Assembly (NCBI GenBank): GCA_944381615.1
Contig: CALWLT010000036.1
Coordinates: 1 to 64,000, forward strand
From: an uncultured Lachnospiraceae bacterium
GTDB taxonomy: Bacteria; Bacillota; Clostridia; Lachnospirales; Lachnospiraceae
DNA: 64,000 nt
Direction: 5' to 3'
Both the position numbers and the translations under genes were made by a program. Positions 23,424 to 36,062 of the stretch are shown here, piece after piece (the stretch's first letter is position 1; every line of letters begins with the position of its first letter). The notes beneath the pieces were generated by a model. It was not told the origin of the DNA, made no database searches, and was given only the letters and a program-made list of their open reading frames with translations.

Positions 23424-23966
23424 TTAGCCGAAGTATCTCTCCAGCAGGCCCTTGAAGGCTCTGCCGTGACGGGCCTCGTCTCTTGCCATCTCGTGTACGG
23501 TGTCGTGGATCGCGTCCAGATTGGCGGCTTTCGCGCGCTTCGCCAGGTCGAACTTGCCGGCCGTCGCGCCGTTCTCAGCCTCTACGCGCATCTCCAGATT
23601 CTTCTTGGTGGAATCGGTCAGCACCTCGCCTAACAGCTCGGCGAACTTGGCGGCGTGCTCCGCTTCTTCGTAAGCGGCCTTCTCCCAGTACAGGCCGATC
23701 TCCGGATATCCTTCTCTGTGAGCGACTCTCGCCATGGCCAGATACATGCCGACTTCCTTGCACTCGCCCTCATAGTTGGCTCTCAGATCTGCCATGATGT
23801 CCTCGCTCGCGCCCTGCGCAACGCCGACTACGTGCTCGGCAGCCCATGCCATATCGGCAGCCTGCTCCTGGAATTTGGAAGCGGGAGCGCCGCAGACCGG
23901 ACATTTCTCCGGAGCAGCCTCGCCCTCGTAAACATAACCGCATACCGTACATACAAATTTCTTCAT
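23424..23966 (-). CDS. Reverse rubrerythrin (NADH peroxidase type)
   Basis: 180 residues with the domain order reversed relative to classical rubrerythrin. An N-terminal rubredoxin-like FeS4 site (C6, C9, C22, C25) is followed by a ferritin-like di-iron four-helix bundle with E-x-x-H motifs ([31 protein letters not shown]). Such proteins reduce hydrogen peroxide (and O2 via partner reductases) in anaerobic clostridia. AAAAGGAGAG precedes the ATG. Expression is probably controlled by the neighbouring PerR-type protein, since a TAAT-N-ATTA box overlaps its predicted transcription start. Confidence 0.95.
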
Positions 23967-24061
23967 GACGTCTCTCTCCTTTTATTTGAAAATTAAATGA
24001 AACTGCGTGTCTGCAGGCCGGGCTGAAAACCGCGGCCTGCGTAATCTTCACAATCAATAAT

Positions 24062-24109
24062 AGTAATGATTACTGATATTAAGATAGCACAAAGCGCCGG
24101 TTCTGTCAA
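24062..24109 (-). promoter_or_regulatory. Reverse-rubrerythrin promoter with PerR-like box
   Basis: On the minus strand: TTGACA (24109-24104), 17 bases, TATCTT (24086-24081). The palindrome AGTAATCATTACT at 24074-24062 overlaps the predicted start. Its core matches the central TAAT-N-ATTA of the Per box (TTATAATNATTATAA). Confidence 0.72.
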
Positions 24110-24570
24110 CTGGAAATTTGAAAATTTTCCGGGTCAAATGATTCTGCGCCGCCTTTGATCCGCCCGCCCCCCGCAGACCGCTTTCCTTCCTGCTGGCAGT
24201 CCGCGCAGACGCCGTAGAAAAAGATCGTGTGATCCTCGATGGTTCCCTCGACATGGACGGCGGCCTTCTCTTCCAGACCGGACGCAGCCTCCATGGGGAT
24301 GTCCGTGATACGGCCGCAGCGGCGGCAGACAAAGTGATAGTGCGGGGATGTATCATAGTCGAAATGATCCGTGCCGTCGCCGCAGGAGAACTTGCGGATC
24401 TCCCCCAGATCGACGAGCAGGTTCAGATTCCGGTATACCGTGCCCAGGCTGATGTTGGGAAACTGTTCCCGAATGCTGGTGTAAAGAGCGTCCGCGGTCG
24501 GGTGATCCTTGCGTCTCATCAGGCAGGCTTTGATCGATTCGCGCTGGCGGCTGTACTTTAACGTTTTCAT
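24106..24570 (-). CDS. perR: Fur-family regulator, probably PerR
   Basis: 154 residues. The N-terminal winged helix (TADALYTSIREQFPNISLGTVYRNLNLL) binds DNA. The structural zinc site is C82-x2-C85 and C122-x2-C125. The regulatory metal site includes D71, H77 and H79, plus D90 at the position where PerR has Asp104 and Fur has Glu, which favours PerR. PerR senses peroxide by metal-catalysed histidine oxidation and then releases DNA. GTGAGGAGAG lies before the ATG. The C-terminal ~30 residues are an unstructured extension. Boxes before itself and before reverse rubrerythrin suggest autoregulation and a local peroxide regulon. Confidence 0.85.
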   Translation of the reverse strand: MKTLKYSRQRESIKACLMRRKDHPTADALYTSIREQFPNISLGTVYRNLNLLVDLGEIRKFSCGDGTDHFDYDTSPHYHFVCRRCGRITDIPMEAASGLEEKAAVHVEGTIEDHTIFFYGVCADCQQEGKRSAGGGRIKGGAESFDPENFQISS

Positions 24571-24705: not shown

Positions 24706-24733
24706 TTGATGAAATGCGTCCCGGTGGTATAAT
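24706..24733 (+). promoter_or_regulatory. Promoter of the five-gene fusion-protein/two-component operon
   Basis: TTGATG (24706-24711), 16 bases, TATAAT (24728-24733). It is the only good promoter before the tightly packed genes from 24765 to 34379. Confidence 0.65.
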
Positions 24734-24764: not shown

Positions 24765-27700
24765 ATGAGCAAGAAAGAGGTACGGCAGATGGTTTCCGCT
24801 CTGACGGAGCGTCTCTGCGAGAAGGAATTTCTGGATCGGTCCGGCCTGAGCAGGAAACACATTCAGATGCTGATGAACAAGGAGCACTGGGAGGAGCAGA
24901 TTTCCAGGCTGCTGCCGATTAAGAAGCGGGTTTCCTGCCGCCTGGTTTATGAGATGTGCGCGGAGCCGCTGTCTCTTCTGGGATATCAGCCGGAAGAGGG
25001 GTGGATGAAGTTTACCTATCAGTACGCCTGCCATATCCTGTATCCCGATCCGGAATTTACGCGGGCGGGCGCGGGCTTCAGGGCGGGCGCGGAATTTTAC
25101 CTGGCCGTGCTGCGCTTCGTGTTCGAGATGGAGCGGGCGGTGCTGGCGCCTCAGCCGCTGAGCGATTTCGTATTTCTCGACGACGAGGAGGCGAAGAAGT
25201 TCGAGAGCTACCGCGAATACCGGCAGTTCAAGCGCGCCTTTGCCGGCGAGTACATCTATGAGATGATGCGGCTGAATGCGGAGGTTACGCCGTTTCGCAC
25301 GCTGGAGCACATCGCGGGCGTTCATTACGTTTCCATGGCGGTGGCGCGCGGCCTTTACGAGGCGGGCGTCCCCATCGATCTGACGCTGATCTCCGGCGCG
25401 GCGGCCGGGCACGATCTGGGAAAATTCGGCTGCAAGCCGAATGAGCGGGTGCCGTATCTTCATTATTACTACACCGATCAGTGGTTTGCCCGCCACTCCA
25501 TGAACTACATCGGCCATATTGCGGCCAACCATTCGACCTGGGATCTGGAGCCGGAAAATCTGTCGGTGGAATCGCTGGTGCTGATTTATTCCGATTTCAG
25601 GGTCAAGCAGAGCCGCGGCGAGGACGGGCGTGAGATTACCTATATTTCCACGCTGGACGAGGCGTTTAACGTGATCCTCTCCAAGCTGGACAACGTGGAT
25701 GAGAAGAAACTGAACCGCTACCGTTTTGTCTACGCCAAGCTCCACGATTTCGAGGATTACATGCGCTCGCTCGGCGTGGACGTGGGGCTGGACGGGAAGC
25801 CGGAAAAGCCGCAGGCGCTGCCGGATATCTCTCTGCGGAATGCGTCTCAGACCGTGGAATCGCTGGTGTTCATGGCGATCGAGCACAACATCCGCGTCAT
25901 GCACCGGATGGGCGCGGAGCGCCAGTTCGGAAACCTTCTGGAGGCGGCCCGCAGCGAGAAGAACTGGAAGAATGTGCGCGCCTACCTCAATGTGTTCCGC
26001 GAATATTTTACCTATACCAACGACAGCCAGAAGGAACAGACGTTAAGCTTCCTCTACGAGCTTCTGATGCACCGCGAGGGCGACATCCGCAATCAGGCGG
26101 CGCGCCTTCTGGGACAGGTCATCGCGCAGTTCAACGCGGGCTACCGCAAGGAGCGGCCGGCCGGGATGACAGACATCGCCGAGGAGCGGGTCATGAAGAT
26201 CTGGAATTCCTATCTGGAGATGATCATCTGCCCGGATCACAAGCTCACGGTACAGCAGAAGCGCCGCGTCCGCTACCACCTGAAAAATGTGCTGGCGGCG
26301 CTCTCGGAGTACGCCGGGGAAGCGGATCTGCCGCATTTTCTCTCCGCGTACCTGGCCTGGTATGACCGGGCGGGAGAGCTGGAGGCCGGGGCGGCCTTCG
26401 TCCTGCTGGACGCCGTCCATTTTCTGCCGCTGGAGAAGCTGGACGAAGCGGATCTGGGCCGGATCATTCATTTTGCGCTCGCGGAGGCGGGGCGGGGCGA
26501 CTCGGAGGTGCGCATCGCGGCCTGGCGCCTGTTCCGGCATCTGACGGGCTTCTGCCCGCAGCATCCGGCCTGCCAGGAGATTGCGGACTGCGTGCGGCAG
26601 GCGGACGTGGGCGGCGATATCACGATGACGTTCCTCAGATACCGGGTGCTGACCAATCTGGGATACGATACAGAAAAAGAGCAGGAGATCCTGTACGGCC
26701 GGGACGTGGTGTCCGATATTTTCCTGGACAACCTGAAGTCCTCGACGCCCTGGATCATCAAGGCGGTCAACATCAAGCTCCTGGTCGACCAGATCGACCA
26801 CGGCAAGCGGGAGCATATCCTGCACATCGCGGCGCATTTTTCCAATCTGATCAAGGTCAGCGAGCATGTGATGGTGCGCCATGACGCGGGGCGTGCGCTG
26901 CTGCGCATCGTCGGCCTGCTGACGCCGGATCAGCGCAATGAGATCGCGATGGAGCTTTTAAAGGGCCTGGAGGTAGGCGAGTACGAATTTTCCAAATACA
27001 TCCCCCGCTATCTGGGCGAGACGGCGCTGTGGCTGCCGCCGGAGCAGATTGGGGAGATCCTTTCGCATCTGAAGGCGCTGATGGCCAGCCCCAACGATCA
27101 GATTGCCTCCGTGGCGCTGGATACGGTGGGCATCCTTCTGGAGTGCTGCCCCTGCTATCAGACCCGCTTTGAGGAAGAGGAAGGGGTCTGGGAGAGACGC
27201 CGCGGCGAGCTTCTGGGGACGCTGCTGGGAGGCCTTGCCAACTACCGGGAGCCGGTGCGCCAGGAGGCTTTGCTGGTATTCGGCCAGATCGTGTTCGGAT
27301 CGCTGCGCCTTTCCTGCGTGCAGAAAAAAGAGATTTTTGTACTCTGCTTCAAGAAACTTCTGTTCCTTCTCAATGAGAATAAGGGAGACGAGCTGACGGT
27401 CTTTTACCGGGCGGCCGCGCTGTCCAACCTCTACCGCTTTATCACGGATTACCGCATGACGGAGGGGGACTTTGAGATCGGGGAGCGGGAGAAGGTCGCC
27501 TTCTTCCCGGGCACTTTCGATCCCTTTACGCTCTCGCACAAGGAGATTGTGCGCGAGATCCGGGACCGGGGCTATGAGGTGTATCTGGCGGTGGACGAAT
27601 TTTCCTGGTCCAAGAAGGCCCAGCCGCACCTGATCCGGCGCCAGATTGTCAACATGTCGGTGGCGGACGAGTTCCATGTCAATCTCTTCCCGGACGACAT

Positions 27701-29615
27701 CCCGGTCAACATCGCTAACCCGGCGGATTTGCGGCGCTTGAAGCAGGTGTTTGCCGGAAAGGAGATTTACATTGTGGTGGGAAGCGATGTGATTGCCAAC
27801 GCGTCCTCCTACCGCGAGGAGCCTTGTGAGGATTCGATTCACACCATGAACCATATCGCGTTCCGCCGGGTGGGGGATAAGAAGGCAGACAATAAATTTA
27901 ACCGGGAGATGATGGACCGCATCAGCGGGACCGTGTACGAGCTGGAGCTGCCGGAGCATCTGGAGGACATCAGCTCGACCAAGATCCGGGAAAACATCGA
28001 CATGAACCGCGATATTTCCAACCTGATCGATCCTTCCGTGCAGGAGTATATTTATTTTAACGGCCTGTATCTGCGCGAGCCGGAATACAAGCCGATCATC
28101 CGCGCGCGCGCGATCTCATTCGAGGAGACGGACGCGCCCGACGAGGCGCTTCTGGAGGAGATCGACCGCATCGTCCTGCAGGACGAAGAGCACGGGACGC
28201 AGGTCATGGCGGCCATCCGTTCCCGCGGCGACCGGCTGCTGCTGCTGCGCAATACGGTAGCGGACAATCGGCTGGTGGGCGTGGCAAGGCTCCGCTATCT
28301 GGCTCCGGACGAGTTGTTCGGCGTGCTGAAACGGGTGGATCTGGCGGATCAGGTGCGCCAGCAGACGCATGGGGAGGTCCTTCTGATCAGCGGCATCCAC
28401 GTTGAGCGAGATCCGATGATCCACGACGCCGAGCAGCTTCTCCTGGCGGAGGCGATTGCGCGCTCCTTTGCTTACCGCTGCGGCTATGCGCTGTTTTTTT
28501 CGGCGGAGGGCTGCTATCCGGATCGGGTTATGTCGGCGGTGCTGCGCCAGGGCTTCGTGAAGGCGGCCAATTCGCCGGAGAAGGCGCCGATCTGGCTGGT
28601 CGACATGCACGCGCCGCTCGTTTTGATGCAGAATCTGGAGACGACGCTGAAGGAGCCGTTTTCCAGCAACGCGCGGGTGCTGCGGGCGGTCTACAAGGCA
28701 CACCAGGATCTGCAGATGGCGATGACGGCTATTTATCCGGGACAGCTGGTGCTGTCGCTGTCGGCCAGCGTGATTTACCACCGTCTGGTAGACAAGATCA
28801 CGGCTTTAAACGAGGTGCCGCGGGAGCCGGTTACGCCCCGCCGCCTGGGCGAGGCCATGTGCGTGCCCTTCGGCAAGATCCTGCGCGGGAAGGTCGTTCC
28901 CAACACGGTAACCAAGACGCTGCACACCGACAAGGTATTCGATCCGGAGCTGCGCTCCGACACCATCGAAGCCTTCCCCTATTATTCGCCGCTGCGCAGC
29001 CAGATCAAGGCGATCAAGTCCTTTAACCGGCCGGTCATCCTGGTGGACGATCTGCTGCATCACGGCGGGCGCTTCGAGACGCTGGAGCCGATGTTTAAAG
29101 AGGAGGGCGTAGAGATTAAGAAGCTGGTGCTGGGGATGCTTTCAGGCTACGGCCGCGACATGATGGCGACCAAGGGCATTCCGGTGGACAGCATTTACTA
29201 TATCCCCAACCTGAAATACTGGTATGTGGAATCGACGCTGTACCCGTTTATCGGCGGCGATACGGTGCGCCGCGATACGGTCAAGGTGGCGGGCCTGACG
29301 CCGTCCATCAACATGATTCTTCCCTATGCGCTGCCGCCGTTAAAGGAGTGCAGCCGGGAGGCGCTGTTTGATTTTTCCGCCTGCTGCATCCGCAATGCGA
29401 GAGATATCCTGCTGGCGCTGGAGGCGGAGTACCGGGCGCTGTTTGCGCGCAACCTGACATTAAGCCGGCTTTCCGAGGCGGTCATTTTGCCGCTGTGCCC
29501 GGACAAGGGCGAGTGCGTCAGCTACGATCCCAACCTGGCGGCTTCCGTCTATCTGGAAAACGATCTGCAGATGCTGTATCGGACGAGGTACCACAGCAGG
29601 CATAAGAACGGATAG
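24765..29615 (+). CDS. Giant multidomain protein: HD - helical repeats - nucleotidyltransferase - GNAT-like - PRTase-like
   Basis: 1,616 residues without membrane segments. Residues ~180-330 look like an HD phosphohydrolase domain: His in RTLEHIAG near 182, GHDLGKFG with the HD pair at 216-217, and NHSTWD near 256. Residues ~380-890 are helical, HEAT-like (RNQAARLLGQV, PVRQEALLVFGQI). Residues ~908-1100 form a NadD/cytidylyltransferase fold with FFPGTFDPFTLSHKEI near 913, GSDVIAN, and SSTKIREN near 1070 in place of the usual ISSTxIR. Residues ~1114-1300 are GNAT-like. Residues ~1330-1560 contain ILVDDLLHHGG near 1424, resembling a PRPP-binding loop. AAGGAGGAG fixes the start. It heads an operon with dehydrogenase-like, flavoprotein and two-component genes. 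Coupling of HD hydrolysis, nucleotide transfer and PRTase-like chemistry suggests nucleotide or NAD-related metabolism, but no function can be named. Confidence 0.85.
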   Translation: MSKKEVRQMVSALTERLCEKEFLDRSGLSRKHIQMLMNKEHWEEQISRLLPIKKRVSCRLVYEMCAEPLSLLGYQPEEGWMKFTYQYACHILYPDPEFTRAGAGFRAGAEFYLAVLRFVFEMERAVLAPQPLSDFVFLDDEEAKKFESYREYRQFKRAFAGEYIYEMMRLNAEVTPFRTLEHIAGVHYVSMAVARGLYEAGVPIDLTLISGAAAGHDLGKFGCKPNERVPYLHYYYTDQWFARHSMNYIGHIAANHSTWDLEPENLSVESLVLIYSDFRVKQSRGEDGREITYISTLDEAFNVILSKLDNVDEKKLNRYRFVYAKLHDFEDYMRSLGVDVGLDGKPEKPQALPDISLRNASQTVESLVFMAIEHNIRVMHRMGAERQFGNLLEAARSEKNWKNVRAYLNVFREYFTYTNDSQKEQTLSFLYELLMHREGDIRNQAARLLGQVIAQFNAGYRKERPAGMTDIAEERVMKIWNSYLEMIICPDHKLTVQQKRRVRYHLKNVLAALSEYAGEADLPHFLSAYLAWYDRAGELEAGAAFVLLDAVHFLPLEKLDEADLGRIIHFALAEAGRGDSEVRIAAWRLFRHLTGFCPQHPACQEIADCVRQADVGGDITMTFLRYRVLTNLGYDTEKEQEILYGRDVVSDIFLDNLKSSTPWIIKAVNIKLLVDQIDHGKREHILHIAAHFSNLIKVSEHVMVRHDAGRALLRIVGLLTPDQRNEIAMELLKGLEVGEYEFSKYIPRYLGETALWLPPEQIGEILSHLKALMASPNDQIASVALDTVGILLECCPCYQTRFEEEEGVWERRRGELLGTLLGGLANYREPVRQEALLVFGQIVFGSLRLSCVQKKEIFVLCFKKLLFLLNENKGDELTVFYRAAALSNLYRFITDYRMTEGDFEIGEREKVAFFPGTFDPFTLSHKEIVREIRDRGYEVYLAVDEFSWSKKAQPHLIRRQIVNMSVADEFHVNLFPDDIPVNIANPADLRRLKQVFAGKEIYIVVGSDVIANASSYREEPCEDSIHTMNHIAFRRVGDKKADNKFNREMMDRISGTVYELELPEHLEDISSTKIRENIDMNRDISNLIDPSVQEYIYFNGLYLREPEYKPIIRARAISFEETDAPDEALLEEIDRIVLQDEEHGTQVMAAIRSRGDRLLLLRNTVADNRLVGVARLRYLAPDELFGVLKRVDLADQVRQQTHGEVLLISGIHVERDPMIHDAEQLLLAEAIARSFAYRCGYALFFSAEGCYPDRVMSAVLRQGFVKAANSPEKAPIWLVDMHAPLVLMQNLETTLKEPFSSNARVLRAVYKAHQDLQMAMTAIYPGQLVLSLSASVIYHRLVDKITALNEVPREPVTPRRLGEAMCVPFGKILRGKVVPNTVTKTLHTDKVFDPELRSDTIEAFPYYSPLRSQIKAIKSFNRPVILVDDLLHHGGRFETLEPMFKEEGVEIKKLVLGMLSGYGRDMMATKGIPVDSIYYIPNLKYWYVESTLYPFIGGDTVRRDTVKVAGLTPSINMILPYALPPLKECSREALFDFSACCIRNARDILLALEAEYRALFARNLTLSRLSEAVILPLCPDKGECVSYDPNLAASVYLENDLQMLYRTRYHSRHKNG

Positions 29616-29665
29616 GCGGCATCTGGCCGGAAGCGGAGAAAAAAGAAGACAGGAGGTTTGAAAGC

Positions 29666-30967
29666 ATGTTTTTCTATAGAATTGACGGGCGGCTCTGCTG
29701 CAGCCCGCGGGGCGATCTGCCGTTTGAGAGAGCGGCGCTTTCGCGGGAGGACGAGACGGTTTTCGCGCTGTTTGAGCGCGATCCCGGCGCCGGGCGGGCG
29801 TCGTTTCTGGTCCGCGATCTGCGGCTTCTGTTCCAGGAAAAGGAAGACGTTTCCTGGTTAAGCAGCCGGGAGCTGGAGAAAGGGGAGCGGGCGGCCCGGG
29901 CCGGAGCGCCGGAGAAAACGGACGGCTGGGCGTCGGAGGATCGGGAAACGCTTTTTAACACGCTGGGGCCGGCGGCAGAGGCCGGCCGTCTGACGGCCGT
30001 AAACCGGCTGCATCCGGCCTGGCGGGAGATTCTCAAGCGGAAACCGGCCACCGGGAAAAAACGCGTCCACGTGCTGGCGATCGGCGACGTGGGAAGCACG
30101 CTTCTGACCGGCCTGCATCTGCTGGGCGGCGACTGCATTTCCTCCATCGGGATCTGCGACATTTCGGATCAGGTTACGGCCCGCTGGGAGTTTGAGGAAA
30201 ATCAGATCGCGTATCCCTGGGATTATGACGCCCTGCCGGAGGTGGACGTGGTAGCGCCGGAGCGGCTGTTCGACTGCGACGTCTTCGTGTTTGTGGCGTC
30301 GAAGGGGATCCCGCCGGTCGGCTCGCAGGTCAAAGACGTGCGCATGTATCAGTTTGAAAACAATTCCAAAATCGTGGCGCAGTACGCCAGACAGGCGCGG
30401 CGGGAGCATTTTAAGGGACTGTTCGCCGTCGTCTCGGATCCGGTGGATCCGTTGGCCAAGACGGCCTGGCTGGAGAGCAACCGGGACGAGGACGGGAAGC
30501 TGGATTATCTGGGGCTTTTGCCGGAGCAGGTGCAGGGCTTCGGGCTCGGCGTGATGAATGCGCGGGCCGCCTATTATGCCAAGCGGGATCCGCGTTTGAA
30601 GCAGTTTTTGACGGAGGGCCGTTCCTTTGGCCCGCACGGCCAGGATCTGGTGGTGGCCGACTCGATTGAGCATTACGACGACGCCCTCTCGCGGGAGCTG
30701 ACGCAGCTGACCGTGACGGCCAACCTCCACATGCGGGCCATCGGGTTTAAGCCGTTTATCGCGCCGGCGTATTCGTCGGGGGCGATCTCTCTGATCCTGA
30801 CGCTCCGGGGCGAGTGGCACTGCGGTTCCGTCTTCCTGGGCGGGATTTTCATGGGGGTAAAAAACCGCTATACGCCCGCCGGCCTGGAGACGGAGATCCT
30901 GCCGCTGCCCGACGCGCTGTATGAGCGGATCGTGACGGCGCAGGAGAATCTCAGGCAGATTGTGTAG
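29666..30967 (+). CDS. Divergent lactate/malate-dehydrogenase-like protein
   Basis: 433 residues. A ~110-residue N-terminal extension of unknown fold is followed by a Rossmann domain: VHVLAIGDVGSTLLTGLHLL has the nucleotide-binding glycines at 140-143, followed by an acidic residue in ICDISD at the end of the second strand. FAVVSDPVDPL corresponds to the LDH NPVD segment, and SFGPHGQD corresponds to the GEHGDS region that holds the catalytic His. The family oxidises or reduces 2-hydroxy/2-oxo acids with NAD(H). The overall sequence is far from classical LDH or MDH, so the substrate is open. AGGAGG precedes the ATG. It sits 50 bases behind the giant gene. Confidence 0.72.
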   Translation: MFFYRIDGRLCCSPRGDLPFERAALSREDETVFALFERDPGAGRASFLVRDLRLLFQEKEDVSWLSSRELEKGERAARAGAPEKTDGWASEDRETLFNTLGPAAEAGRLTAVNRLHPAWREILKRKPATGKKRVHVLAIGDVGSTLLTGLHLLGGDCISSIGICDISDQVTARWEFEENQIAYPWDYDALPEVDVVAPERLFDCDVFVFVASKGIPPVGSQVKDVRMYQFENNSKIVAQYARQARREHFKGLFAVVSDPVDPLAKTAWLESNRDEDGKLDYLGLLPEQVQGFGLGVMNARAAYYAKRDPRLKQFLTEGRSFGPHGQDLVVADSIEHYDDALSRELTQLTVTANLHMRAIGFKPFIAPAYSSGAISLILTLRGEWHCGSVFLGGIFMGVKNRYTPAGLETEILPLPDALYERIVTAQENLRQIV

Positions 30968-31010
30968 AGCGCGGAGAAAGCGGAGAAAATCAGGAAAGCG
31001 GGGAAAAACG

Positions 31011-32261
31011 GTGGCAGAGACGGCAGGAGAGACGACAGAAGAAAAGAAAACAGTGCGGCAGAGCGCGCGGGAGCCGGTGTTTCCCGTCGTGATGCCGCGG
31101 GAGAAGGACGCCGCGATCCCGGAACGCCTCCGGGCGGTGCTCTCCGCTGCGCTGGCGGGCCGCAAGGCGCGGATCCTGGAGACGGCAGAGGAGCTGGAGG
31201 TTTTTCTTTCGCAGCGCCGGTCCCTTTCAGAGATCCGCTCCCTTTCGGAAAGCCGGCCGGCGGGGCGGATCCTGTTTGTCCTGTCCCTGGGGGCGGACGG
31301 GGTCAATCTGGAGTATGCGAGGCTGCTCCGTTTCCTGCGCCGCGCGCCGGGGGCGCTTGACGGGTACACGGGCGGCGTGATCGCCGACAGCGAGAGCGAT
31401 CTCTTTACAAAATCGGCTGCCAGGGAGCTCGTATTTGCGGCCAACTGCGCCGGCTGCGCCTTCGTGGGGCGGCCGCTGGTCGAGGGGACGGGGACGCTGT
31501 CCAACTTTGCCATCGTGGCCCGCAATCTGGGGACGGACTGGGCGGGCGCTTACCGGGAGAGCGCCGCGGAGCTGGTGCGCTCCGTGCTGGAGACGGAGTT
31601 TGTCCCGCGCAAAAAGCCGGTCCTTCTGGCGCTGCACGCTTCCAGCCATAAGACGTCCAATACCTGGGCGCTGTGGAGCGAGGTCCGCAAACGGCTGGAC
31701 GGCTTTGAGATCCAGGAGATCGGCCTCAGAAACGGGACGCTCTCGGACTGCTCGGGCTGTCCGTATAAGATGTGCCTGCATTTCGGGGAGCGGGGGAGCT
31801 GCTTTTACGGCGGGGTCATGGCAGAGGACGTCTATCCGGCCGTGCGCCGCGCGGACGGGATTATCATGCTGTGTCCCAATTACAACGACGCGCTGTCGGC
31901 CAACCTCACGGCCTTTATCAACCGCCTGACGGCGCTGTTCCGCACGGTGCGCTTTTACGACAAAGCGCTGTTTGGCATCGTGGTCTCGGGCTATTCGGGC
32001 AGCGATATCGTGGCCGGGCAGCTGATCGCGGCGCTTAACATGAACAAGACCTTTTATCTGCCCGGCGGCTTTACCATGATGGAGACGGCCAACGACGCGG
32101 GGACGGCGCTGAAGCTTCCGGGGATTGAGGGGCGCATCGACGCGTTTGCCGGCCGGATCCGGCGGACGCTGCTGGCCGGGGCGGCCGCGGAAAAAAGCGG
32201 GGCGGCCGCGGGGCGCGGATCAGACAGAGGAGATGAGCGGGAGGAGAGAGGGAATCTATGA
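31011..32261 (+). CDS. Flavodoxin-fold NAD(P)H oxidoreductase with Cys cluster
   Basis: 416 residues from a GTG start; an upstream in-frame TTG at 30960 overlaps the previous gene and lacks a ribosome site. Residues ~1-200 form an unrecognised N-terminal domain. Residues ~205-390 resemble NADPH-dependent FMN reductase or iron-sulfur flavoproteins: LLALHASSHKTSNTWAL is the FMN phosphate loop, and CPNYNDALSANLTAFINRL is the isoalloxazine-side segment. Cysteines 247, 250, 255 and 264 lie in CSGCPYKMC-x8-C, similar to but spaced differently from the CX2CX2CX4-7C of Isf proteins. It overlaps the kinase start by four bases (ATGA). Electron transfer linked to the dehydrogenase-like neighbour is inferred. 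Confidence 0.75.
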   Translation: MAETAGETTEEKKTVRQSAREPVFPVVMPREKDAAIPERLRAVLSAALAGRKARILETAEELEVFLSQRRSLSEIRSLSESRPAGRILFVLSLGADGVNLEYARLLRFLRRAPGALDGYTGGVIADSESDLFTKSAARELVFAANCAGCAFVGRPLVEGTGTLSNFAIVARNLGTDWAGAYRESAAELVRSVLETEFVPRKKPVLLALHASSHKTSNTWALWSEVRKRLDGFEIQEIGLRNGTLSDCSGCPYKMCLHFGERGSCFYGGVMAEDVYPAVRRADGIIMLCPNYNDALSANLTAFINRLTALFRTVRFYDKALFGIVVSGYSGSDIVAGQLIAALNMNKTFYLPGGFTMMETANDAGTALKLPGIEGRIDAFAGRIRRTLLAGAAAEKSGAAAGRGSDRGDEREERGNL

Positions 32262-33535
32262 AACGCTGGAAGCGGACGCTGGCAATCGGGATCGTCATCG
32301 CGCTGACGTCCCAGCTCTACTGGAATGTGTTTGTGACGAATTTCCGCATTTCGACCTCCGTGATCTTGCTGCCGCTCCTGATTATGACGGTCGGAAGCCA
32401 GATCCATACGCTGACCATCTGTCTGGTCACGTCGGCGATCGTGTTTCTGTTCCGGGGCGGTATCTGTTTTCTGCAGGGCTATTCCGTGGCGGAGGCGATG
32501 CCGGCCATTCTGCCGGGCTCGCTCTATTACATCTGCTACGGCCTGCTTTTTAAGCTGCAGATCCGCAACAAGCATGTGGCGCGGACAGAACGGGTCATCC
32601 TGGCGGTGTTCCTCTGTGATTTCGGCGCTAACATGATGGAGTTCATGATACAGGAGGCCTGGCAGCAGATGCCGCTCTTTCAGATGGAGGTGGCCAAAAA
32701 CCTGCTTCTGATCGCGGCGGTGCGGACGGTGTTCGTGGCTATGGGGCTGTTCGGCGAGCGCCAGTACCGGGCGCTGCTTAAAAAGGAAGAGCACGAAAAC
32801 CGCTACCGGCGGCTGTTTCTGATGACGACGGGGCTGAAAAATGAGATTTATCTCATGCGCAAGAATACGGAGGAGATCGAGCGCGTCATGAGCAACGCCT
32901 ACCGTCTCTATGAAAGCATCCTGGGGATGGAGCTGCCGCGCAATTTGCAGCAGATGAGCCTGGAGATCGCGCGCGACGTGCACGAGATCAAGAAGGACTA
33001 CCTGCGGATTATCCAGGGGATTGAAAAGGAGATCGATGAGGAGTACGACGAGGAGCGCATGAGCTTCTCCGACCTGCTGCACATTCTGGAAGAGTCGAGC
33101 TATCAGATGCTGGCGGAGAAGCAGGTGGACGTCCGTCTGCTGTTCGACTGCCGCGACGAATTTACCACCAAGGAGCATTATATGCTGATGGCGGTCTTAA
33201 AAAATCTGGTCAGCAACGCCATCGAGGCGATCGAATCGGAAAAGCGGCAGGGGACGATCCGCATCTCGGAGCGGCGGGAGCAGGATACGTATTTCTTTAC
33301 GGTGGAGGACGACGGGCCGGGGATCCGGGAAAAACATCTGCCGAACATTTTTGAGATGGGGTATTCGACGAAATTTGACGAAAAAACGGGGAACATCTAC
33401 CGCGGCGTAGGCCTGTGCGGCGTAAAGAACGCGGTGGAAGAACAATTTAAAGGAAGCATTTCGGTGGAATCGAAGGAGGGGAAAGGGACGAAGTTCCTGA
33501 TCGAGATCCCGGCCGGAACGCTGGAGGAGCGGTAA
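32258..33535 (+). CDS. Membrane sensor histidine kinase, GlnK/DcuS-like (GHKL)
   Basis: 425 residues. About five to six hydrophobic helices span residues 8-170, leaving no large periplasmic sensor domain. The dimerisation/phosphoacceptor helix contains ARDVHEIKKDY with the likely phosphorylated His242. The GHKL ATPase domain has an N box LKNLVSNAIEAIE, G1 DDGPGI, and GVGLCGVKN. Pairing with a YcbB-domain regulator matches the Bacillus subtilis GlnK-GlnL system, which responds to glutamine. The start overlaps the upstream stop as ATGA. The signal is inferred; location between redox-type genes and gdhA leaves nitrogen or redox status as options. Confidence 0.85.
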   Translation: MKRWKRTLAIGIVIALTSQLYWNVFVTNFRISTSVILLPLLIMTVGSQIHTLTICLVTSAIVFLFRGGICFLQGYSVAEAMPAILPGSLYYICYGLLFKLQIRNKHVARTERVILAVFLCDFGANMMEFMIQEAWQQMPLFQMEVAKNLLLIAAVRTVFVAMGLFGERQYRALLKKEEHENRYRRLFLMTTGLKNEIYLMRKNTEEIERVMSNAYRLYESILGMELPRNLQQMSLEIARDVHEIKKDYLRIIQGIEKEIDEEYDEERMSFSDLLHILEESSYQMLAEKQVDVRLLFDCRDEFTTKEHYMLMAVLKNLVSNAIEAIESEKRQGTIRISERREQDTYFFTVEDDGPGIREKHLPNIFEMGYSTKFDEKTGNIYRGVGLCGVKNAVEEQFKGSISVESKEGKGTKFLIEIPAGTLEER

Positions 33536-33536
33536 A

Positions 33537-34379
33537 ATGGAGATTTATATTGTTGAGGATGATCTGTCAGTCATTAATATCCTTCAGGATATCATCGAAG
33601 ATCACGATCTGGGCGAGGTCTGCGGGACCTCGGGCGGCCGGACGGCCGATGTGGGGGAGATCGTGGCCAGCAATCCGGACATGGTGCTGATCGATTTTCT
33701 GATGCCGGAAAAAGACGGGATTCAGGTGGTCAAGGAGTTAAAGGAGCGCGGCTGCCCGGCCAAGTGTATCATGATCTCGCAGGTGGCGGCCAAGGAGCTG
33801 GTGGGGAAGGCCTACGACGCGGGCGTGGAGTTTTTCATCAGCAAGCCCATCAACATCATCGAGGTCAAATCAGTCATCCACAACGTAGAGCAGCAGATCC
33901 GGAACGAGAAGACGCTTCTTAACATCCGGAAAATGTTTGTCGCCGAGATGGAAGAAAAACCGGCCAAACCGGCGGACGACGGCTACGGGAAAAAGGTGCT
34001 CTATATCCTCAACCGCCTCGGCATGTCCGGGGAAAAGGGCGGCGACGATATCCTGCGCATCTGCCAGTACCTGCACAGCAACAACCGGCCTATCTCCCAG
34101 GTCAGCATCGGCCAGCTCTGCGAGATTTTAAGCGATGCGCCGAAGAATATGGAGCAGCGCGTGCGGCGCGCTATCGCGGTGGGCATGTCCAACCTGGCCC
34201 ATCTGGGGATCGAGGACTTTATGAACGAGACGTTTACCTCCTATTCCAGCACGCTCTTCCCCTTCGAGGAGATCCGGGCGGAGATGGATTTTATCCGCGG
34301 GAAACGGCGTTACGGCGGCAAGGTCAGCATCAAAAAATTCATTGACAGCCTGATGCTGGCGGCGGACCGCGAGGGATAG
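33537..34379 (+). CDS. Response regulator with YcbB-type DNA-binding domain (GlnL-like)
   Basis: 280 residues. The receiver domain (1-120) has the acidic pocket (VEDD), the phosphoacceptor Asp53 in MVLIDFLMP, and a Lys in FFISKPI. The C-terminal ~130 residues (from GYGKKVLYILNRLGM) match the YcbB/GlnL DNA-binding domain rather than OmpR or NarL types; ISQVSIGQLCEIL and EQRVRRAIAVGMSNLAHLG are characteristic helices. It begins one base after the kinase stop, so the pair is translationally linked. Its probable target is the gdhA promoter 160 bases downstream, which carries a large inverted repeat. Confidence 0.87.
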   Translation: MEIYIVEDDLSVINILQDIIEDHDLGEVCGTSGGRTADVGEIVASNPDMVLIDFLMPEKDGIQVVKELKERGCPAKCIMISQVAAKELVGKAYDAGVEFFISKPINIIEVKSVIHNVEQQIRNEKTLLNIRKMFVAEMEEKPAKPADDGYGKKVLYILNRLGMSGEKGGDDILRICQYLHSNNRPISQVSIGQLCEILSDAPKNMEQRVRRAIAVGMSNLAHLGIEDFMNETFTSYSSTLFPFEEIRAEMDFIRGKRRYGGKVSIKKFIDSLMLAADREG

Positions 34380-34709
34380 CGGACCGCCGGCAAGGCGGAA
34401 CGGATTTCGGCTGACGTTTGCTGACGATTCCTGTATTTTTCTGTCGCCGCGGGCGTATGGTTGACAGAGCGGGACGGGCGTCCCGGGCGCCCGGAAAAAC
34501 GCATAAAGAAAAAGAAATAACAGCTATAATCCTATTTTTATTTGATTATAGAAGGGAAATGAGCTATAATCAAAGCATAGGTAAATAATTCACAAAAACC
34601 TGCTGAAGCGAGAGGGAAAGTTGTGCGGATTGTATTACATATCTGCAGAATTGCGGCGGCGGGCGGCGTGAATCATGAAACACATATATCAAACAGGAGG
34701 TAGTTTCCA
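34380..34709. other. Regulatory gap before gdhA
   Basis: 330 bases without an ORF. It is AT-rich compared with its surroundings (especially 34500-34610). It holds the half site AGCTATAATC at 34522-34531, the full inverted repeat at 34541-34574, and a leader of about 130 bases before gdhA. No terminator with a T-run was found after the response-regulator gene. Confidence 0.6.
34541..34574. promoter_or_regulatory. Symmetrical promoter palindrome for gdhA
   Basis: TTTGATTATAG (34541-34551) and CTATAATCAAA (34564-34574) are perfect 11-bp inverted repeats around a 12-base centre. On the + strand this places TTGATT (34542-34547) 17 bases from TATAAT (34565-34570). Because of the symmetry the identical -35/-10 pair also exists on the minus strand. 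A third half site lies 40 bases upstream in direct orientation to the right arm. Confidence 0.75.
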
Positions 34710-36062
34710 ATGAGCAAGTATGTTGACAGAGTTCTTGCCGAACTCAAAGAGAAAAACGCAAACGAGCCGGAGTTCCTTCAGACCGCAGAGGAAGTATTAT
34801 CTTCTCTGGGCCCGGTTGTAGATGCTCATCCGGAGTATGAGAAGGTTGCTCTTCTCGAGAGAATGGTTGAGCCGGAGAGAACGATCGAGTTCCGCGTTCC
34901 GTGGGTTGACGACGGGGGCCAGGTTCATGTAAACCGCGGCTACCGCGTACAGTTCAACGGCGCGATTGGACCGTACAAGGGCGGCTTACGTTTTGCTCCT
35001 TCTGTAAACCTTTCCATCATGAAGTTCCTGGGCTTCGAGCAGACCTTTAAGAACAGCCTTACGACCCTGCCGATGGGCGGCGCCAAGGGTGGTTCTGACT
35101 TCGATCCGAACGGCAAGAGCGACGCCGAGGTTATGAGATTCTGCCAGTCCTTCATGACGGAGTTATACCGCCACATCGGTCCCGACATCGATATCCCGGC
35201 CGGCGACCTTGGCGTAGGCGCACGTGAGATTGGCTATATGTACGGCCAGTACAGAAAGATCAGAGGCGCGTTCGAGAACGGCACCATCACGGGCAAGGGA
35301 ATGAGCTTCGGCGGATCGCTGGTTCGTCCGGAAGCAACCGGTTACGGCGCTGTTTACTATGTAGAAGCTGTTATGAAGCATGAGAACGACACGCTGGCCG
35401 GCAAGACGGTTGCCCTGGCAGGCTTCGGCAACGTAGCCTGGGGCGCTGCGAAGAAGCTGGCTGAGCTGGGCGCGAAGGCTGTTACGCTTTCCGGTCCTGA
35501 CGGATACATCTACGATCCGGACGGCGTTGTAACGGAAGAGAAGATCAACTACATGCTGGAGATGAGAGCTTCCGGCCGCAACAAAGTTCAGGATTACGCG
35601 GACAAGTTCGGCGTACAGTTCTTCCCGGGCGAGAAGCCGTGGGGCTGCAAGGTTGACATCATCATGCCGTGCGCAACCCAGAACGATGTGGATCTGGAGC
35701 AGGCGAAGAAGATCGTTGCCAACAACATCAAGTACTACATCGAGGTTGCCAACATGCCGACGACCAACGAGGCTCTGAAGTACTTAATGTCTCAGCCGAA
35801 CATGGTAGTTGCTCCTTCCAAGGCTGTTAACGCCGGCGGTGTTCTGGTATCCGGCCTTGAGATGAGCCAGAACAGCGAGAGATACTCCTGGACGGCAGAG
35901 GAAGTTGATACGAAGCTGCATCAGATCATGACCGGTATCCATGACGGATCCGCTGCTGCTGCTGAGAAGTATGGCCTGGGCTACAACCTGGTAGCCGGCG
36001 CCAACATCGTAGGCTTCCAGAAGGTTGCCGACGCGATGATGGCTCAGGGAATCTGCTGGTAA
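34710..36062 (+). CDS. gdhA: NADP-type glutamate dehydrogenase
   Basis: 450 residues, hexameric GDH I length. It interconverts 2-oxoglutarate plus ammonia and glutamate. KGGLRF and PMGGAKGGSDFDP contain the substrate and catalytic lysines, GPDIDIPAGDLGVG follows, and the Rossmann motif GFGNVAW begins the coenzyme domain. AGGAGG precedes the ATG. Codon choice is visibly different from its neighbours (many GTT, GCT, CTT and AAG codons), as expected of a highly expressed gene. Regulation by the GlnKL-like pair immediately upstream is likely but inferred. Confidence 0.97.
   Translation: MSKYVDRVLAELKEKNANEPEFLQTAEEVLSSLGPVVDAHPEYEKVALLERMVEPERTIEFRVPWVDDGGQVHVNRGYRVQFNGAIGPYKGGLRFAPSVNLSIMKFLGFEQTFKNSLTTLPMGGAKGGSDFDPNGKSDAEVMRFCQSFMTELYRHIGPDIDIPAGDLGVGAREIGYMYGQYRKIRGAFENGTITGKGMSFGGSLVRPEATGYGAVYYVEAVMKHENDTLAGKTVALAGFGNVAWGAAKKLAELGAKAVTLSGPDGYIYDPDGVVTEEKINYMLEMRASGRNKVQDYADKFGVQFFPGEKPWGCKVDIIMPCATQNDVDLEQAKKIVANNIKYYIEVANMPTTNEALKYLMSQPNMVVAPSKAVNAGGVLVSGLEMSQNSERYSWTAEEVDTKLHQIMTGIHDGSAAAAEKYGLGYNLVAGANIVGFQKVADAMMAQGICW

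Follow-up and report, generated by a model that had tools for sequence, protein, structure and literature searches.

A co-inherited three-gene unit around an HD-HEAT-NadD-GNAT-PRTase fusion protein in Bacillota and its possible link to dinucleotide metabolism

Among the closest described systems, mycoplasmas have a NadD-YqeK fusion (JCVISYN3A_0380; NF005519). Its YqeK domain in JCVI-Syn3A hydrolyses incorrect NaAD analogues as well as 8-oxo-GTP, and this HD domain plausibly polices the product of NadD, which makes the protein a precedent for proofreading by a NadD-HD pair (PMC9426524). A nucleotidyltransferase with an HD domain is also present in the DVU_1551 family of NTP transferases (NF045665). 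Among two-component systems, the GlnK-GlnL (YcbA-YcbB) pair of Bacillus subtilis adjoins glsA-glnT.

Here we analyze five genes, A to E, in a window of 64,000 nucleotides (the whole stretch of DNA that was analyzed) from an uncultured Lachnospiraceae bacterium. No paper describing the A fusion or the A-B-C trio was found in a search of the open-access literature, and the trio seems to be undescribed so far.

Gene order and co-inheritance

The five ORFs lie head to tail on one strand and are preceded by a predicted promoter (Table 1). The short gaps and overlaps between them, reported in the earlier note, were borne out by the ORFs: the spacing is +50 nt between A and B, -8 nt between B and C, -4 nt between C and D, and +1 nt between D and E. 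The longest mechanical ORF of A begins with a TTG seven codons upstream of the ATG given in Table 1, and a strong ribosome site, AAGGAGGAGAGGG, is found upstream of this ATG. No structured RNA was found in the window.

Table 1. Coordinates of genes, domains and predicted promoters in the window
Feature	Position	Strand	Remarks
A	24765..29615	+	1,616-aa HD-HEAT-NadD-GNAT-PRTase fusion; ATG at 24765
HD domain of A, residues about 140-370	25182..25874	+	Profile; invariant metal ligands
HEAT-like solenoid of A, residues 371-904	25875..27476	+	Profile and predicted fold
NadD-like nucleotidyltransferase domain of A, residues 905-1105	27477..28079	+	Profile and predicted fold
GNAT-fold domain of A, residues about 1108-1290	28086..28634	+	Predicted fold; without conserved acetyl-CoA loop
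PRTase-like domain of A, residues 1291-1616	28635..29612	+	Motif VILVDDLLHHGGR; nearest solved folds are xanthine PRTases
B	29666..30967	+	LDH/MDH-fold oxidoreductase
C	30960..32261	+	Flavodoxin-fold FMN reductase
D	32258..33535	+	Membrane histidine kinase; clade-specific neighbor, outside the core unit
E	33537..34379	+	YcbB/GlnL-type response regulator; clade-specific neighbor, outside the core unit
Predicted sigma-70-type promoter of A	24706..24733	+	TTGATG-16-TATAAT, TG before -10, 10/12 consensus
Separate predicted gdhA promoter	34542..34570	+	Conserved

Homologs of A were found in 62 loci, most of them at full length and with 41-81% identity; the full-length homologs belong to Lachnospiraceae, Oscillospiraceae and several other Bacillota, and the carriers of A-B-C are gut and sludge anaerobes. 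In nearly every one of the 62 loci long enough to show them, A is followed by B and C, and the three genes also occur together in Acetoanaerobium noterae. Separate searches for A, B and C across 398 evenly sampled Bacillota genomes each gave eight positive genomes, the same eight for all three genes; across 150 Lachnospiraceae genomes, which formed a second sample, all three genes were present in an identical set of four (the source genome is counted in both samples). Under independence, the identical set of 8/398 would be expected about once in 1e16, a figure that is too strong owing to relatedness. Genome G326 has A on contig C1 but B-C elsewhere, on contig C29; since the trio is complete there although A is unlinked, the association of the three genes is functional and not only positional. 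The pairwise distances between loci correlate, at 0.97 for A and B and at 0.87 for A and C.

Phylogenetic profiling, proposed in the earlier note for all five genes, thus held for A-B-C, while D-E was not co-inherited. The co-inherited unit is A-B-C only, and D-E is a clade-specific neighbor. The absence of a conserved neighborhood, named beforehand as an observation against the proposed system, was not seen, as A-B-C is kept across genomes. The co-occurrence means a shared job of the three genes, but does not tell which job.

Several loci have features of their own. L128 (NZ_CP154629.1), a 2.63 Mb "plasmid" of Acetoanaerobium noterae, carries A-B-C together with ordinary-looking chromosomal genes and almost no gene annotation; it looks like a mislabelled chromosome. 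The A homolog of L075 (G460:C204) contains one in-frame TAA, due to a sequencing error or a broken copy. In genome G380 (locus L080, 15360-16821), A-B-C is preceded on the same strand by two genes whose sequences, judged by eye, resemble those of a CcpN-like regulator and of a PPDK regulatory kinase/phosphorylase. In G326 (locus L078, 3385-14872), A adjoins a Ter cluster made up of three TerD genes, TelA, a YceG-like gene and a PF15617 lyase, and is convergent with the lyase gene.

A link to the Ter stress module (TerD, TelA, YceG, PF15617 lyase) was rejected, as Ter genes adjoin A in G326 only and a strong PF15617 match was found in only one of 15 A-positive genomes. The same holds for the nickel-pincer cofactor: larB/larC are near A in genome G416, but LarC is not commoner in A-positive (seven of 11) than in A-negative genomes (20 of 31). 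In Oscillospiraceae, a spore protease, S20 and a YihY-like gene recur next to A-B-C, apparently as a matter of ordinary chromosomal synteny; some neighbor clusters are antisense shadow ORFs in GC-rich DNA. No stable further neighbor as a possible target was found around the A-B-C loci. Anti-phage defense and phage cargo were rejected as well: none of A-E matched a PADLOC model, and no relative was found among viral contigs.

Domains and conserved residues of A, B and C

The description of A as a fusion of HD, HEAT, NadD, GNAT and PRTase parts was confirmed by profiles and by two confident AlphaFold models, one of residues 1-904 (mean pLDDT 90) and one of residues 905-1616 (mean pLDDT 83). CTP_transf_like scored above the Pfam cut-off, NadD equivalogs of NCBIfam align to residues 907-1105, and the predicted fold of this part matches NadD of M. 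tuberculosis with Z 17.1. In the predicted fold the HEAT solenoid comprises residues 370-904. The GNAT domain is weak by sequence and clear by predicted fold (Z 13.9 to PH1933), and the PRTase domain has a Foldseek match to xanthine PRTases (E 2e-4). Among 37 homologs of A, the HD profile was found in 26, the HEAT profile in 13 and the Pribosyltran profile in three. No DNA-binding or other output domain was found in A.

Residue conservation was judged on these 37 homologs, which come mostly from two families, so that some invariant residues may owe their invariance to descent. The HD ligands H182, H216, D217, H233, H256 and D277 are invariant in 37/37 homologs and align with the metal-binding positions of 12 YqeKs (H..HD..H..H..D, a six-ligand site). 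Membership of this domain in YqeK appears doubtful: the similarity to the YqeK whole-domain profile is weak (hhalign probability 33%), and TIGR00488 is absent from the NCBIfam hits.

In the NadD-like domain, GTFDPFTLSH and ISSTKIR, the motifs of adenylyl transfer (general forms (H/T)xxH and ISSTxIR), are invariant or nearly so, and the NadD profile matches at 99% over the domain; A scores 48.4 bits on the NadD model against a curated cut-off of 150. The Trp of ordinary NadD stacks on the pyridine ring. In an alignment with 13 ordinary NadDs, the pocket motifs PPHK and YTxDTL and this Trp are replaced in A by conserved FSWSKKAQP, PVNIANP and Tyr. Such replacement by other conserved residues is what a changed substrate would lead one to expect, and the kept adenylyl motifs together with the replaced pocket fit adenylyl transfer to a different acceptor.

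The PRTase-like domain has the loop DDLxHxGxR. Its hhhhDD motif and the glycine of the loop do not vary among the homologs; position 9 is an invariant His, and Arg stands where the PRPP loop usually has Thr. Given this non-canonical loop, the domain may only bind a nucleotide. The acetyl-CoA loop Q/RxxGxG/A has no conserved position in the GNAT domain, with scattered, chance-like matches in 15 of the 37 homologs. The folds proposed in the earlier note for these two parts were recovered, but with no conserved acetyl-CoA loop and an altered PRPP motif, GNAT and PRTase chemistry in A appears doubtful.

B aligns with LDH/MDH over the whole Rossmann and catalytic domains (LDH profile match 99%). 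R226, R300 and H324 of B correspond to Arg109, Arg171 and His195 of LDH and are invariant, as is D165, the Asp that binds the adenosine ribose. In 35/35 sequences, Asn140 of LDH is replaced by D258 and Asp168 by M297, while the first glycine of GxGxxG is replaced by A138 (AxGxxG), which is nearly or fully invariant; B also has a longer substrate loop than LDH and an N-terminal extension of 130 residues. As Asp168 of the LDH His-Asp pair is lost, dehydrogenase activity of B is not assured. C contains an FMN_red domain (Pfam, E 1e-18) and an invariant CxxCx4Cx8C (residues 264, 267, 272 and 281) that probably binds a metal cluster; C had no match among NCBIfam or PDB profiles. Pfam and this cysteine pattern agree with the initial assignment of B as LDH-like, of C as a flavoprotein with cysteines and of D-E as a kinase-regulator pair.

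Loss of catalytic residues, the second observation named as speaking against the proposed system, was not seen: the HD ligands and adenylyl motifs are retained, but other invariant residues occupy the NadD pocket, the PRPP loop and the positions of Asp168 and Asn140 of LDH. Judged from the alignments, the altered sites in A and B are best described as conserved departures, not decay.

Possible functions of the unit and its relation to D-E

Our preferred reading, to which we give a probability of roughly one in three, is that A, B and C work as a single functional unit, which produces an adenylylated, NAD-like dinucleotide and uses it. It is based on the observed co-inheritance, domain folds and kept or replaced residues, from which we infer substrates, activities and the order of steps. 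The C-terminal PRTase-like domain of A would make or bind a base-ribose-5-phosphate, and the NadD-like domain would move AMP from ATP onto it, giving base-ribose-P-P-adenosine. The two-metal-type HD domain would hydrolyse wrong or surplus product, like YqeK next to NadD in mycoplasmas, with the HEAT solenoid and the GNAT-fold domain as a possible scaffold. B would bind the dinucleotide (or NAD itself) and, with its altered catalytic site, oxidise or reduce a 2-hydroxy/2-oxo acid, while C, through flavin and its probable cysteine-bound metal cluster, would pass electrons to or from the couple of B. On its contig C39 the source genome carries an ordinary NadD next to an ordinary YqeK, which excludes A as the housekeeping NadD and makes it an additional enzyme. 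The proposal of an uncharacterised nucleotide- or NAD-linked system is supported by the conserved catalytic residues and the conserved neighborhood.

If A-B-C makes and uses its own dinucleotide, a redox cofactor or a pathway of NAD repair has gone unrecognised in gut anaerobes, among them Flavonifractor, Pseudoflavonifractor and the Clostridium symbiosum group. Even without a dinucleotide, the three genes of A-B-C are strictly co-inherited, their conserved sites are enzyme-like, and the unit is small enough for laboratory tests, and the altered NadD and LDH active sites lead to specific predictions of which substrates fail.

Several other explanations were considered. According to the first, which we regard as unlikely, though the least so of these, the unit serves damage control in anaerobes, repairing or clearing away faulty nucleotides of the NAD type: HD would hydrolyse faulty dinucleotides, the NadD-like domain would remake correct ones, and B and C would reduce or oxidise the damaged forms. 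The activities of the JCVI-Syn3A fusion speak for this explanation, and in Lachnospiraceae A is divergent from a rubrerythrin gene and a gene for a Fur/PerR-type regulator (23424-24570, minus strand, in the window; also in L003, L004, L084, L124 and L125). This pair, kept beside A in that clade, hints at a redox-stress setting, but the rubrerythrin neighborhood is restricted to Lachnospiraceae. Furthermore, the NaMN-pocket motifs are not kept in A, and A-B-C is absent from about 98% of the sampled Bacillota, though damage of NAD is general.

A bolder form of the preferred reading, rather improbable in our estimate, is that A makes from PRPP and ATP a previously unknown adenine dinucleotide cofactor other than NAD, and that the dehydrogenase B and the flavoprotein C work only with it. 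If true, this would be a private redox currency in certain anaerobes.

Slightly less probable again is a regulatory unit, in which A would sense PRPP, a purine or an alarmone through the inactive PRTase and GNAT parts, NadD and HD would make or destroy a dinucleotide signal, and the HEAT solenoid would bind and control B and C. The altered PRPP loop and the missing acetyl-CoA loop suggest binding roles, the HEAT scaffold is large, and the two-metal ligand set of HD is like that of the Ap4A hydrolase YqeK; on the other hand, B and C retain invariant enzyme-like catalytic residues, A has no output domain, and a candidate target among stable neighbors is missing.

The last explanation concerns D-E. 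E consists of a receiver and a YcbB domain (PF08664, E 5.6e-32), and the order A-B-C-D-E-(gltS)-gdhA is conserved in Lachnospiraceae. Among the 62 loci, D-E follows A-B-C only in Lachnospiraceae and in one Oscillospiraceae locus; the other Oscillospiraceae trios are without adjoining D-E, and the trios of this family are without adjoining gdhA. A YcbB-type regulator is present in five of 11 A-positive and three of 31 A-negative genomes. A GltS-type glutamate transporter gene is located between E and gdhA in L001, L004, L005, L028 and L046, and not at the corresponding place in the window; its position after the regulator in these relatives suggests that the pair may control glutamate uptake. 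The gdhA promoter region (34490-34710) contains a repeated CTATAAT/ATTATAG block, variably kept in several of seven related loci. The repeated CTATAATC motif before gdhA was rejected as a regulator site, as it coincides with the -10/-35 elements of the gdhA promoter; it is absent before A, is not found consistently before gltS and is not commoner in the window than in shuffles.

A five-gene, nitrogen-linked system that signals through D-E to gdhA, as envisaged in the earlier note, is therefore very improbable: the Lachnospiraceae gene order and the GlnL type of E speak for it, but six of the 11 A-positive genomes are without a YcbB-type regulator, D-E is confined as described, and gdhA has its own conserved promoter.

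Comparison with known systems

Like the mycoplasma NadD-YqeK fusion, A combines a nucleotidyltransferase of the NadD type with an HD hydrolase in a single chain. It differs in the reversed domain order, in the 530-residue HEAT solenoid between the two domains, in the added GNAT and PRTase folds, and in the replaced NaMN-pocket motifs, with scores far below the NadD cut-offs. Its HD domain is nearest to DVU_1551 and not to YqeK: the DVU_1551 family is the closest curated model (36/37 homologs, best E 1.7e-7), but the match is confined to the HD part, and the other domains are unrelated.

C shares the FMN_red domain and a tight cysteine group with NADPH-dependent FMN reductases and iron-sulfur flavoproteins; its cysteine spacing, CxxCx4Cx8C, sets it apart from them, and the cluster in C is putative. 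The pair D-E corresponds to GlnK-GlnL, as E has the same receiver and YcbB domain and D is a matching kinase, but its neighbors are A-B-C, gltS and gdhA instead of glsA-glnT; control of glutamine/glutamate genes, viewed here through gene order and promoter sequence, would be a putative role of the pair. B has the fold of the L-lactate/malate dehydrogenase superfamily with the three catalytic residues and the ribose Asp, and differs at Asn140, Asp168 and GxGxxG. By the tests run, A and B would not be classified as NadD, a GNAT enzyme or LDH, nor probably as YqeK, but they resemble parts of each.
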